Source: Caldilineales bacterium (GTDB taxonomy: Bacteria > Chloroflexota > Anaerolineae > J102). Taken from it: a DNA stretch of 64,000 nt. Location: NCBI GenBank assembly GCA_019695115.1, contig JAIBAP010000019.1, positions 1 through 64,000 of the forward strand, read 5' to 3'. The translations under genes were made by a program, and so were the position numbers. Of this stretch, positions 58,661-63,445 are shown in pieces; positions within the stretch are counted from its first letter, which is position 1; each line of letters begins with the position of its first letter. The notes beneath the pieces were generated by a model. It ran no database searches, had not been told where the DNA came from, and worked only from the letters and a program-made list of their open reading frames with translations.

Positions 58661-59662
58661 TCAGCTTGTCGCTGTTTCACGTGAAACAGCGGTGCGAAAG
58701 TCATAGATGCCATCGACCCGGGGCCAACTGGCGCCGCAGCCCTGGCAGCGCAGGCCGGGATCAGTCGGCGCCAGTTCGGCGCTGCCACAGGTCGGGCAGC
58801 GAAACAACCCTGGGCGCGGGTCGGGGGGTTTCTGGTTGCGGCAACGCACAAGCAGGCTGGGGGTCAGTTTCAGGGCGGCGCCCGGCCCGGCCAACACGCC
58901 ATCCAGCCGGGCCAGCCAGGGCGCCGGCACACGGGACTTGAGGGCCGGCAGTCTGAAGCTCGAAATCGCCAACTCGCCTTCCTTGCCAAAGCCGGCCTGG
59001 CGAAGTTGCCGTTCCATCCAGGTAGGATGAAAATCATAGTTCAGCCGCACAAACTCATAGGGCTGAAGATCGAACGGACTCCAGGTCTGGCGACGCAGGG
59101 CATAGCGCGCCAGTGACTTCAGGTTGCGCTTGTTGGCGTATTCCAGAACGAAAACCTTGCCCCCCTGGACGATGCGGGCGATCTCGGCCAGGGCCAGAGC
59201 CGGCGCCTGCAGATGGTGCATCACCCGCACCATCACCAGGGCGTCGAGCAGGTTGTCCACGAAAGGCATGTCGTAGATGCTGGCGGCGACGAAGACGAAG
59301 CGTTCGTCATGCCCCCAAAGCTGGCGCGCCTCCTGCAACAGGGAAAGCGAATAATCGACCAGAATGATGCGGCGGTAGCCATTGTAGAGCGACGCCAAAC
59401 GCCCAAAGCCGGCTCCGGCTTCGAGGATGGTCTCGCCCTGGGCCGGCAACAGACGCCTCAGGGCCGCGCGCTCGGCCAGGTCCTCGTATTCCCGGCCCTG
59501 TCCTTCCCAAAAGTCGGTGCGATAACGACTGCCCTCGTAGTCGATGATAGATGGAGGCAATGAGTTCAATGGTGGAGTGACCTCAGACGGCGATGCTGCC
59601 CACACGAGCAGCGACCAGTGCGTGTGATGGCAGATGCCACCACATCGTTTCACGTGAAACAC
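58661..59662 (-). CDS. SAM-dependent methyltransferase with C-terminal zinc ribbon
   Basis: A class I methyltransferase of up to 333 residues. ILEAGAGFGRLASLYNGY is motif I, and VMVRVMHHLQAP and GKVFVLEYANKRNLKSL follow. The C-terminal tail FRCPTCGSAELAPTDPGLRC and QGCGASWP is a Trm112-like zinc ribbon. The first codons (GTG giving MFHVKR) and the last ones (VSRET) are simply parS sites read as protein; the real start may be TTG at 59569 or nearby, since conserved sequence starts at SIIDYEGSRYRTDFW. Substrate unknown. Confidence 0.78.
   Translation of the reverse strand: MFHVKRCGGICHHTHWSLLVWAASPSEVTPPLNSLPPSIIDYEGSRYRTDFWEGQGREYEDLAERAALRRLLPAQGETILEAGAGFGRLASLYNGYRRIILVDYSLSLLQEARQLWGHDERFVFVAASIYDMPFVDNLLDALVMVRVMHHLQAPALALAEIARIVQGGKVFVLEYANKRNLKSLARYALRRQTWSPFDLQPYEFVRLNYDFHPTWMERQLRQAGFGKEGELAISSFRLPALKSRVPAPWLARLDGVLAGPGAALKLTPSLLVRCRNQKPPDPRPGLFRCPTCGSAELAPTDPGLRCQGCGASWPRVDGIYDFRTAVSRETATS
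58673..58688. promoter_or_regulatory. parS centromere site (perfect)
   Basis: TGTTTCACGTGAAACA matches the 16-base ParB-binding consensus exactly and extends to a 20-bp palindrome (58671-58690). It lies within the last codons of the methyltransferase gene. Confidence 0.95.
59646..59661. promoter_or_regulatory. parS centromere site (15 of 16)
   Basis: CGTTTCACGTGAAACA differs from consensus only at the first base. It lies at the 5' end of the methyltransferase frame, about 225 bases before the rsmG start. Confidence 0.92.
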
Positions 59663-59886: not shown

Positions 59887-60699
59887 ATGACCACCTCTCC
59901 CGTCTCCCCTGCCCAGCTTGCGGACCCCTGGCGCTTTCTGAGCGATGGCGCCGCCCAACTGGGCGCGCCGCTCAACGAAGAACAGATGCAGCTCTTTCGC
60001 GGCTACACCGGGTTGTTGCAGGCGGCCAACCAGCAGTTCAACCTCACCGCCGTGCGCGACCTGCCGGGCATGGTCGCCAAGCTTCATCTCGATAGCCTCA
60101 GCCTGCTCGGCCCCATTGCCAGCGCCGCCGGCCTCGATATCGCCGGCCTGCGCCAAAGCGGATGGCGCGCTGCCGATGTGGGCAGCGGCGCCGGCATCCC
60201 CGGCCTCCCGCTGCTGTTGGCCTGGCCCGGCCTGCGCCTGAGTCTGATCGAGTCCGTTCAGAAAAAGGGCGTCTTCCTGCGCCAAACCCTGGCGGCGATC
60301 AACAAGACGGCCTTTGTCCTGATCGAGCGGGCGGAGATCGTCGGCCAACAGCCGGCCCATCGCGGCGGCTACGACCTGGTGGTGGCCCGCGCTGTGGCCG
60401 AGATGACCACACTGGCCGAACTGACGATCCCACTGGCGCGGGTGGGCGGGTTGGTGGTCTTGCCCAAAGGCGCCAAAGCGAGCGATGAATGTGCGGCGGC
60501 GGGCTTCGCCATCCATCTGCTCGGCGCCGAAGTGGTGGGCGTCGAGACGCTGGCCGTGCCCGGCGTCGAGGAGAGCCGCGCTGCCGTCATCCTGCGCAAG
60601 ACCCGGCCGACGCCGCCAGCCTATCCACGCCGACCCGGTCTGCCCGCCAAGCGCCCGCTGACAGGACGATCAGACCCTCAAGGTCTTGGCGACCTTTAG
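59887..60699 (+). CDS. rsmG: 16S rRNA m7G527 methyltransferase
   Basis: A 270-residue RsmG (GidB). The core has FNLTAVRDLPGMVAKLHLDS, then ADVGSGAGIPGLPLLL (SAM motif), IESVQKKGVFLRQTL, VVARAVAEMTTLAEL and PTPPAYPRRPGLPAKRPL, the standard C-terminal end. The last dozen codons after that (TGRSDPQGLGDL) come from a dispersed palindrome that provides the stop codon. TACAAT at 59850-59855 is the likely -10 and the leader is C-rich without Shine-Dalgarno. Position before parA is the conserved bacterial order. Confidence 0.93.
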   Translation: MTTSPVSPAQLADPWRFLSDGAAQLGAPLNEEQMQLFRGYTGLLQAANQQFNLTAVRDLPGMVAKLHLDSLSLLGPIASAAGLDIAGLRQSGWRAADVGSGAGIPGLPLLLAWPGLRLSLIESVQKKGVFLRQTLAAINKTAFVLIERAEIVGQQPAHRGGYDLVVARAVAEMTTLAELTIPLARVGGLVVLPKGAKASDECAAAGFAIHLLGAEVVGVETLAVPGVEESRAAVILRKTRPTPPAYPRRPGLPAKRPLTGRSDPQGLGDL

Positions 60700-60845: not shown

Positions 60846-61616
60846 ATGGCCATGGCTCGAATCATTGCTGTTGCCAACCAAAAAGGTGGTGTTGGGAAAA
60901 CGACCACTGTCATCAACGTGGGCGCCATCCTGGCCGAAAAAGGCTACCGCACCCTTCTGGTCGATCTCGACCCCCAGGCTGCCCTCACTGCCTCCTGCGG
61001 CGTCAATCCCTTCGATCTGACGCGTTCGGTCTATCACAGCCTGTTGGCGCAGGAACTGGACGTGCGCACCATCGTCAAGCACGTGCGACCGCGCCTGGAT
61101 CTGCTCCCCGCCAACATCCACCTGGCTGGCGCCGAGGTCGAACTCGTGTCGCAGATCGGGCGGGAATATCTGCTGCAAGAGGCGTTGGAGATGGTGCGGG
61201 GCGACTACGACTACATCCTCATCGATTGTGGGCCGAGCCTGGGGCTGCTCACCATCAATGCCCTCACCGCCGCCGATGAAGTGCTCATCCCGGTGCTGTG
61301 CGAATACCTGGCCCTGCGCGGGATGGGCATCCTCTTCGACACCATCCGCCGGGTGCGAGAGCGGACGAACCCGCGCCTGGTGGTGTTGGGCATCGTGGCC
61401 ACCCTCTTCGATAACCGCACCCTCCACAGTCGCGAGGTGCTGGACGAATTGCGCGCCATGCCCGGCATCCGCGTCTTCGACACCATCATCCGCAAGAGCA
61501 TCCGTTTTGCCGAGGCCGCAGCCGCCAACACCCCCATCACCGACTATGCGCCCTCACACAGCAGCAGCGAAAACTACCGCGGTCTGACAGAGGAGATTCT
61601 CCATGAGCAAAGATAG
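60846..61616 (+). CDS. parA: ParA/Soj chromosome-partition ATPase
   Basis: A 256-residue ParA. The deviant Walker A KGGVGKTTT (residues 13-21) carries the signature Lys13; VDLDPQAALTASCGVN and YILIDCGPSLGLLTINAL complete the nucleotide site. Length matches chromosomal ParA (Soj) without an N-terminal DNA-binding domain. TATACT at 60749-60754 is a possible -10. Its end overlaps the next gene by 14 bases. Two parS sites lie within 2.2 kb, yet the adjacent gene is not a normal parB. Confidence 0.93.
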   Translation: MAMARIIAVANQKGGVGKTTTVINVGAILAEKGYRTLLVDLDPQAALTASCGVNPFDLTRSVYHSLLAQELDVRTIVKHVRPRLDLLPANIHLAGAEVELVSQIGREYLLQEALEMVRGDYDYILIDCGPSLGLLTINALTAADEVLIPVLCEYLALRGMGILFDTIRRVRERTNPRLVVLGIVATLFDNRTLHSREVLDELRAMPGIRVFDTIIRKSIRFAEAAAANTPITDYAPSHSSSENYRGLTEEILHEQR

Positions 61617-63306
61617 GCCATCGATGCGTGGACGCGGGGACGAGATACTCGGCAGAGGAGTTGACGCCCTCTTCAGCAGCCCCGCTGCCCGACCAACCGC
61701 GCCCCAGCCCGGTGTGTCCGCTGCCGATGCCGACCTGGACCGACTCTTGGCGGCGGAGGCGCAAAGCGCCATGAGTGGCGTCGGCGGCGTCCCCGACGCC
61801 CCACCCTCGCCGATCCGATCCACGACCCTCGACCAGGGCGCCATTGCCGGCGGCGGCGTCTTGATCTCGGACGAGGAGTTGCTGCGCGAAATCGAGACCC
61901 CGCTCACCCGCACGGAAGAAGTCGTGATCGAGCCGCCGCTCGATGGGCTCGCCATCGATGTCCCAACCCCTCCCAATCCTGTCCCGACCCCCGGCCCCTC
62001 CGAAGCCGTAGTGTCGCCTCCCAGCCCGGTGGAACCTTCGCTCCCGCCGCCCGCGCCGCCGCCCGCGCCGTCGCCCGCGCCGTCACCCGCGCCTCTGCCC
62101 ACCCCTCTACCCGCGCCTCTGCCCACACCCACGCGTCCGGCCGCGCCCGCACCGCGTCCAGCCGCGCCCGCACCGCGTCCGGCCGCGCCCGCCGTCCCGG
62201 TCAGCCCGCCGCGACAACCGCTGACGCCCCCGGCTCCTGCGCCGGCGCCTTCTCGCCCGGCGAGCGACGCCGGCAGCCGCCCGGCCTTCCCCGGCGCCAG
62301 CATCGCTCCGGCCGCACCTGCCACCGGCTCCAGCCTCCCGCCCGACCGCCCGCGGGTGAGCATCGGCGGCCCCCTGACCGAGGTGGCGGTAGCACCGGGC
62401 GAGTTGGATGCCGCCGACGTCCGCCCCTTGTCGCCGTTCGAGCCACGGCCAGAACAGGTGATCGAGGACCCCCTGGCGCACCCAGCACGCAGTGATGAAG
62501 ACCTCAACCGCCTGCGAAGCCAGGTGGATCCAAAACGAATCGCGGATCTCAACAAGGAAATCGACCGGCTATACCGCGACATCCCCGACCGCATCAGCAA
62601 CCGCCCCGACCTCAGCGGCCAGGCCATGGGCCTGCTGCGCCGGGCGCGCACCACGCTTTTCGAGAGTCCCCAGGACTTCGTCGAGGCCGAGTATCTGGTC
62701 AAGCAGGCGACGCTGATCTACAACCGCATCGAGAACTCCGAAAAGTGGGGCGACAAATATGGTTGGCGGGTCTTCTACTACGAGATCATCGCCCTCATCA
62801 TCTTCCTCATCTCCTTCCTGCTGCTCCTGGCCTTCGGCGATCCCTTCTCCAACTATCTGGTGGGGCTGATCAAGGGCCAGGCGACGCTCACCCAACTCGC
62901 CCAGGATCCCACCCAATGGGGGAAGTTGGGCATCCCCGGTGTGCTCACGGCGGTGGGCTTCTGGGCCACCCTGGTGTGGGGCGGGATCGGCGGGGTGGTG
63001 GGCGCGCTCTACATCTTGTGGACGCATATTTCCGAACGGCAGGACTTCGAACGCCAGCATGTGATGTGGTACGTTGTTCAACCCATCCTCGGCCTCATCC
63101 TCGGCGGCGTGACCTTCCTGATCATCTACACCGGCCTGCTCACCTTCCAGGCCAGCGAGCCGGTGACGACGGCGCTGGCGAAAGAGATCCAGCTCTTCCC
63201 CTGCCTGGTGGCTTTCATCGCCGGCTTCCGGCCGCAGTTCATCTTCGGGCTGCTGACCAAGATCATCAAGATCATCAATCCGACCGAGAACGAACGCTCG
63301 GCCTGA
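61603..63306 (+). CDS. Membrane protein with ParB-like N-terminal peptide
   Basis: A 567-residue protein overlapping parA. Residues about 16-26 (LGRGVDALFSS) match the extreme N terminus of ParB proteins (consensus L-G-R-G-L-x-A-L-x), the short arm that stimulates ParA ATPase. None of the ParB CTPase or helix-turn-helix domains follows. Instead there is a low-complexity Pro/Ala region (about 130-250, with APAPRPA units), a helical segment with charged heptads (about 300-385: LNRLRSQVDPKRIADLNKEI), and three to four membrane helices (about 390-545). The ATG at 61603 is preceded by GAGGAG within the parA coding sequence. This could tether ParA to the membrane (inference). Confidence 0.75.
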   Translation: MSKDRPSMRGRGDEILGRGVDALFSSPAARPTAPQPGVSAADADLDRLLAAEAQSAMSGVGGVPDAPPSPIRSTTLDQGAIAGGGVLISDEELLREIETPLTRTEEVVIEPPLDGLAIDVPTPPNPVPTPGPSEAVVSPPSPVEPSLPPPAPPPAPSPAPSPAPLPTPLPAPLPTPTRPAAPAPRPAAPAPRPAAPAVPVSPPRQPLTPPAPAPAPSRPASDAGSRPAFPGASIAPAAPATGSSLPPDRPRVSIGGPLTEVAVAPGELDAADVRPLSPFEPRPEQVIEDPLAHPARSDEDLNRLRSQVDPKRIADLNKEIDRLYRDIPDRISNRPDLSGQAMGLLRRARTTLFESPQDFVEAEYLVKQATLIYNRIENSEKWGDKYGWRVFYYEIIALIIFLISFLLLLAFGDPFSNYLVGLIKGQATLTQLAQDPTQWGKLGIPGVLTAVGFWATLVWGGIGGVVGALYILWTHISERQDFERQHVMWYVVQPILGLILGGVTFLIIYTGLLTFQASEPVTTALAKEIQLFPCLVAFIAGFRPQFIFGLLTKIIKIINPTENERSA

Positions 63307-63365: not shown

Positions 63366-63377
63366 GAACAAATGTTC
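63366..63377. promoter_or_regulatory. SOS box, upstream copy
   Basis: GAACAAATGTTC fits the GAAC-N4-GTTC LexA operator and is flanked by A and T (AGAACAAATGTTCT), 21 bases ahead of the -35 box. Confidence 0.85.
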
Positions 63378-63433: not shown

Positions 63434-63445
63434 GAACGTTTGTTC
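63434..63445. promoter_or_regulatory. SOS box overlapping the transcription start
   Basis: GAACGTTTGTTC (63434-63445) lies where transcription from the promoter should begin, a repressing position for LexA. Confidence 0.88.

Follow-up and report, generated by a model that had tools for sequence, protein, structure and literature searches.

We consider it likely that a parA gene and the gene directly behind it in a Caldilineales genome constitute a two-gene positioning system of the ParA/MinD type, apart from ParABS, in which the ATPase-activating partner would be an integral membrane protein. The proposal draws on features that can be read in the sequences themselves: the gene pair, a ParB-like peptide co-occurring with ParA, and a distinct ParA clade whose ATPase core is intact and whose DNA-binding arginine is mostly conserved. 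In a literature search that covered mostly openly available papers and few preprints, no membrane-anchored ParA partner of this kind was found, Chloroflexota included.

The gene pair and its membrane protein

The window, that is, the whole 64,000-nucleotide stretch of DNA that was analysed (G000:C19:1-64000), is part of a 5.99 Mb assembly of 135 contigs. Its forward strand carries rsmG (gidB; 59887..60699; PF02527, E=2e-34; start codon by inspection) as the neighbour upstream of parA (60846..61616; the start may be 60852), followed by the gene for a membrane protein of 567 aa (61603..63306). The window ParA, a member of the membrane-partner clade described below, has 256 aa, a deviant Walker motif KGGVGKTT and a Pfam AAA_31 match with E=5e-61. 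The original prediction that the gene after parA overlaps it and takes the usual place of parB was borne out: the overlap is 14 nt (60846-61616 / 61603-63306), and the order rsmG-parA-membrane gene matches the classical rsmG-parA-parB up to the third gene. Downstream, the window contains only two GAACN4GTTC palindromes (63366-63375 and 63434-63443; AGAACAAATGTTCT, AGAACGTTTGTTCT), both between the membrane gene and a LexA-like gene (63504-). Because of this position they are probably SOS boxes of an autoregulated lexA.

The open reading frame of the membrane protein begins with MSKDRPSMRGRGDEILGRGVDALFSS..., and its N-terminus reads SMRGRGDEI-LGRGVDALF. The ParB-style start that had been pointed out earlier, LGRGVDALF, occupies residues 16-24 (61648..61674, forward strand; central Arg18) as a putative ParA-binding peptide. 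It is accompanied by a half-copy, the basic half-repeat RGRGDEIL at residues 9-16 (61627..61650, forward strand), which distant homologues keep in the form RxSIxGKGxDIL. About 20 residues after the peptide there is a second short conserved segment, DLDRLLAAEA / DLAALLDHEV (window 61723-61785), which is present even in homologues without the ParA peptide.

The remainder of the protein largely agrees with the earlier description of a long Pro/Ala linker, a charged helix and membrane spans in the place of ParB domains. Pro and Ala make up 46% of residues 25-250, and the Pro/Ala-rich linker proper (aa 121-250, 61963..62352, forward strand) is poorly conserved. A charged, conserved helical segment, predicted to be cytosolic, follows at residues 300-393 (62500..62781, forward strand), with a model confidence of mostly 70-90. 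The membrane domain (62782..63243, forward strand) has about four spans as judged by hydropathy only, with peaks at aa 394-412, 451-471, 495-513 and 529-547. Three to four spans had been described earlier; hydropathy supports the higher number, the fourth peak being weak and the AlphaFold model of the region poor. Several hydrophobic spans are kept across homologues by the same measure, and the protein is predicted to be inserted in the membrane as an integral protein. Compared with four close orthologues, conservation is 0.67 at residues 16-30, falls to near zero in the linker and peaks at 0.8-0.9 in the membrane domain and in the loop between spans 2 and 3, W.H.S.RQDFERQ..MWY..QP, which is the most conserved one.

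Searches of the window membrane protein against Pfam and NCBIfam matched no family, and neither ParB_N (the Srx-like CTPase, PF02195) nor an HTH nor a C-terminal dimerisation domain was found in it. Thus, while the N-terminal peptide is of the kind used as a ParB criterion (LG[KR]GL..L[IF]), the protein is, judged by its domain content, not a ParB. A PDB sequence search with the membrane domain produced no usable match. Foldseek with an AF2 model (7 close sequences) also yielded no usable fold match for the membrane domain, a result that carries no weight because the quality of the model is low there (pLDDT 65). An identity as Voltage_CLC was dropped, since the matches are weak, below the curated cut-off and limited to 9/24 family members.

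The C-terminal membrane domain is found in 25/61 relatives and, with a 24-row profile, in 138/396 genomes of the class. The homologue genomes are mostly MAGs. Outside the class it is rare, matches there being mostly weak, and L269 is the single clear ParA-linked case. A plasmid or phage origin was considered and set aside: tblastn gave no match to the membrane protein in either the plasmid or the phage collection.

The N-terminal peptide and its association with ParA

Inspection of 85 membrane-gene loci revealed parA directly upstream of the membrane gene, usually overlapping it, at 41 of them, in many families. After the start codons had been checked, all 41 ParA-adjacent homologues showed a basic GxG / (V,I,L)D(A,I,V)LF-type N-terminal segment and none lacked it, the most distant of these peptides being assigned by eye. 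The variants include LGRGVDALF, RGRGLDALF, KGKGMDILF, TRPVDALFG, SLAGRGWDILVGG, ISIRGRGRALF and others. A simple regular expression recovered only 32/39 because it missed variants. We therefore used inspection of the starts together with a nine-column PSSM built exclusively from ParB N-termini of the class (52 sequences), which avoids circularity.

With this ParB-only PSSM, 23/41 ParA-adjacent N-termini score above the 95th percentile of 590 background N-termini, and so do 7/11 N-termini from genomes where the ParA is unlinked. None of 18 homologues from genomes without a detected clade ParA does so (0/18); in these the peptide is absent and the scores equal background. Linker windows gave 0/55 above the 99th percentile. 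The Mann-Whitney test returned p=5e-23 versus background and 4e-8 versus the homologues without clade ParA; the underlying counts are not independent events because the genomes are related. In the window protein, the N-terminal 60 aa score 16.6 bits, a value reached by 0/20,000 shuffles of the same residues. Among close orthologues the codons of GRGVDALF differ at almost every third base with the residues unchanged. Since the silent sites vary and the residues stay, the peptide appears to be under purifying selection.

The co-occurrence extends beyond the adjacent pairs. In 11 further genomes a peptide-bearing membrane protein and an unlinked ParA of the same clade are both present. In G103 (L112) the RGRGLDALF stretch and the clade ParA are both missing, and its family relatives keep both. 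Six peptide-bearing proteins come from genomes without a detected clade ParA, the assemblies being mostly fragmented MAGs. Conservation beside parA across families, and absence where the clade ParA is absent, support the original prediction that the membrane protein is a ParA partner with a ParB-type peptide.

The membrane domain also occurs without ParA and without the peptide, and therefore its basic job is apparently not ParA-related. Such homologues (L047, L103, L104, L055, L119, L129, L135 and L136) carry at the N-terminus a different short motif containing a conserved tryptophan together with acidic residues (VKQWDE, APQPWDE, VKPVPWEEE), which is perhaps a docking peptide for a different partner.

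A ParA clade beside the ParABS of the genome

In the phylogenetic tree, 50 ParB-adjacent ParAs are separated from all 45 membrane-partner or orphan ParAs by a branch with a support of 100, and in a 67-row tree the clade of ParB-linked ParAs is supported 100/100. Further ParAs can be assigned with hardly any ambiguity by profiles of the two kinds, and ParAs near ParB are nearly always of the ParB type. All 45 clade ParAs, the window's included, keep the signature Lys, the Walker Lys, the catalytic Asp and the Walker-B Asp. The numbering of the DNA-binding arginines follows B. subtilis (Bs) Soj. The position of Bs Arg218 is R/K in 42/45 clade ParAs, while that of Bs R189 is Arg in only 23/45, so that nucleoid binding by clade ParAs may differ. 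The window ParA has both R189 and R218. Of the residues that pair with the central Arg of ParB, Mx Y81 is kept in 39/45 and Mx E117 in 31/45; the Mx E82 position is usually non-acidic, and the Mx D110 position is His in the window ParA (residue roles from PMC12462528).

A full parB, which the original prediction proposed to look for elsewhere in the genome, is present on contig C63 beside its own parA. This one true ParB (303 aa, MTTRRGLGRGLSSLIP...) carries ParB_N, HTH_ParB and ParB_C and is the sole ParB_N match in the genome. ParB is likewise found in 55/61 relatives, at separate loci. We therefore rejected the idea that the membrane protein replaces ParB, since ParB is present with its own adjacent ParA elsewhere. 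The separate ParA clade, together with a full parAB usually kept elsewhere in the genome, argues that the pair is a dedicated second ParA system with a predicted integral-membrane partner, separate from ParABS.

Some members of the clade have other surroundings. In L190, L191, L193, L194, L195 and L196 a second, divergent ParA-like ATPase stands in tandem before an unlinked clade ParA. In genus g6 of the window's family (L227-L230) the clade ParA has an altered, longer C-terminus, and no membrane partner was detectable.

Proposed mechanism and alternative readings

The pair may operate as follows. ParA would be located on the nucleoid as an ATP-bound dimer, and the disordered N-terminus of the partner would reach from the membrane over the long flexible linker to the nucleoid. 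There LGRGVDALF would dock in the ParA groove used by the ParB peptide, leading to hydrolysis of ATP and to release. Repeated at the envelope, such capture and release could space the membrane protein and its assembly partners relative to the nucleoid. Alternatively, the cycle could both attach ParA and the nucleoid to, and clear them from, selected parts of the envelope. Docking, nucleoid binding and the topology of the membrane protein are predictions from the sequences. Stimulation of the clade ParA ATPase by the peptide is expected from the biochemistry of ParB: the ParB peptide alone stimulates ParA with DNA, its hydrophobic residues bind a pocket at the edge of the ParA dimer, and its central Arg is needed for stimulation (PMC12462528). 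Action of the partner through a charged disordered N-terminus is an accepted general rule (PMC10241942), and the N-terminus described here fits such a peptide in charge and motif, its disorder being judged from composition. Against this explanation stand the g6 ParA without a detected partner, the six peptide proteins without a detected ParA, the occurrence of the membrane domain in proteins that have neither ParA nor peptide, and the deviations at Mx E82, Mx D110 and Bs R189.

The pair can be compared with several known systems. Like ParABS, it has a ParA of the same family with the catalytic residues, a partner gene overlapping parA and an N-terminal LGRG-type peptide, and in the window's family also rsmG upstream and parS nearby. 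Unlike ParABS, it has a membrane partner with a Pro/Ala linker and a membrane domain instead of ParB_N, HTH and the C-terminal dimerisation domain, its ParA clade is separate, and true parAB lies elsewhere in the genome. The ParA/MinD (A/D) ATPase systems with partners other than ParB (McdA-McdB, PomZ-PomX/PomY, PpfA-TlpT, ParC, FlhG-FlhF) similarly comprise a dedicated ATPase encoded or co-occurring with its partner; to our knowledge, partners of the McdB, PomX/PomY, TlpT, ParC and FlhF type are soluble or peripheral, whereas the present one is predicted to be a polytopic membrane protein and belongs to a family that has no name. In A/D partners a charged disordered N-terminus binds the ATPase and the remainder defines the cargo (PMC10241942; PMC13170346 for PomX/PomY). 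The polar membrane receptors TipN and HubP, and also PadC-bactofilin, resemble the pair in capturing ParA at the envelope or at a scaffold. We know of no ParB-type N-terminal peptide in TipN, HubP or PadC and of no co-encoded ParA of their own. TipN is built of a coiled coil and two spans at its N-terminus (PMC9178275), and PadC binds ParA via a ParB-like domain (PMC5703909); according to these papers, both bind ParA by other means. In MinD-MinE, too, the activator of the ATPase works at the membrane. There it is MinD that attaches to the membrane, by way of a C-terminal amphipathic helix; here, in contrast, the predicted membrane spans are carried by the partner.

The genomic location may bear on what is being positioned. 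Two perfect parS cores, GTTTCACGTGAAAC, are found at 58674..58687 (within TGTTTCACGTGAAACA, 58673-58688) and at 59647..59660, 2.2 and 1.2 kb upstream of the operon, respectively. They are the only perfect copies in the 5.99 Mb assembly, with a chance expectation in the window of 0.02; contig C63, home of the true parA-parB, holds no perfect parS. A parS within 4-14 kb of the pair is also present in G006, G010, G001 and G049. General parS linkage was nevertheless rejected: it holds in the window's family and G049 and fails in G029 and G036, where parS is not near the pair. In G029, assembled as a single contig, large distances separate the membrane gene, parAB and parS, and the clade ParA is 62 kb from the membrane gene. 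In the g6 genome G018 the clade ParA (C38:1140) and parS (C38:3103) are about 2 kb apart. Neighbour clusters were used only when confirmed by Pfam, the large ones being partly antisense shadows. In three other family groups the membrane gene adjoins the origin-proximal cluster rnpA-yidC-jag (L052, L122, L124-L126, L132, L146, L148, L153, L155), and in G356 and G281 parAB is about 5 kb from a membrane gene so bordered. The proximity to parS or the origin may indicate a role in origin handling, or only an inherited gene order.

A more specific form of the two-gene system, which we put forward tentatively, is that a ParB-type activator was moved from the centromere to the membrane in a widespread Chloroflexota system. 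A dedicated ParA shuttling between the nucleoid and a polytopic membrane receptor would then set the position of the parS/origin region, or of an envelope machine, relative to the membrane, possibly with cross-talk to ParABS by way of the near-identical peptides. Somewhat unlikely is a special case of the preferred two-gene model, with the chromosome as cargo instead of the membrane protein: the latter would capture nucleoid-bound ParA as an envelope tether or sink and thereby anchor or orient the nucleoid or the origin, as TipN, HubP and PadC do but by means of a ParB-type peptide. The presence of the pair beside parS and rsmG in the window's family is consistent with it, as are the precedents of TipN (PMC9178275) and PadC (PMC5703909); however, the parS linkage is limited to few lineages, and the location may be a relic of the rsmG-parA-parB order.

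The original prediction had gone further and proposed that a single pool of ParA serves two activators, ParB bound to parS and the membrane protein in the envelope, in a chromosome partition machine. We consider this unlikely. The two peptides are nearly alike (LGRGLSSLI in ParB, MTTRRGLGRGLSSLIP, versus LGRGVDALF), the only two perfect parS of the genome lie near the window parA, and so do parS sites in the four genomes listed above. In other families the rnpA-yidC-jag-bordered membrane gene sometimes stands within about 5 kb of parAB, and in g6 (G018) the clade ParA persists near parS without a detected membrane partner. However, ParB is encoded beside a ParA of its own, the two ParA types form separate, fully supported clades with no exchange, and in G029 the components are dispersed. 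We found no evidence for a ParA shared between ParB and the membrane protein, and this part of the prediction is not supported.

Positioning may also not be involved at all. ParA-type ATPases are known as non-spatial switches, with BcsQ, FleN or ArsA-like relatives. ParA could accordingly switch the membrane protein, which would be a channel, a transporter or an assembly factor, by docking at the peptide. The membrane domain shows strong conservation, greatest in loop 2, and exists without ParA, which on this reading would give it an activity of its own, and there are the weak Voltage_CLC matches in 9/24 members. Yet those matches are sub-threshold, and the peptide resembles ATPase-activating peptides rather than generic docking sites, which makes this reading quite improbable. 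That the peptide is coincidental or left over from a replaced parB, as the rsmG-parA-X order with a gene where parB usually stands might suggest, is extremely improbable given the 0/20,000 shuffles, the purifying selection, and the cross-family conservation and co-occurrence with clade ParA.

Returning to the two-gene system with a membrane partner, the data suggest that many Chloroflexota possess, in a second ParA and its membrane partner with a ParB-like peptide, a so far undescribed nucleoid-membrane coupling. The ParA/MinD ATPases are responsible for placing chromosomes, plasmids, carboxysomes, chemoreceptors and flagella, and which cargo is placed depends on the partner. If true, a ParA clade with a polytopic membrane partner would add a nucleoid-to-membrane coupler to this list, in a phylum whose cell biology has been little studied, and the membrane protein would give a partner to an otherwise orphan ParA clade. 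Cells with two ParA systems whose activating peptides are near-identical would also be a natural setting in which to test how cross-talk between the systems is avoided.
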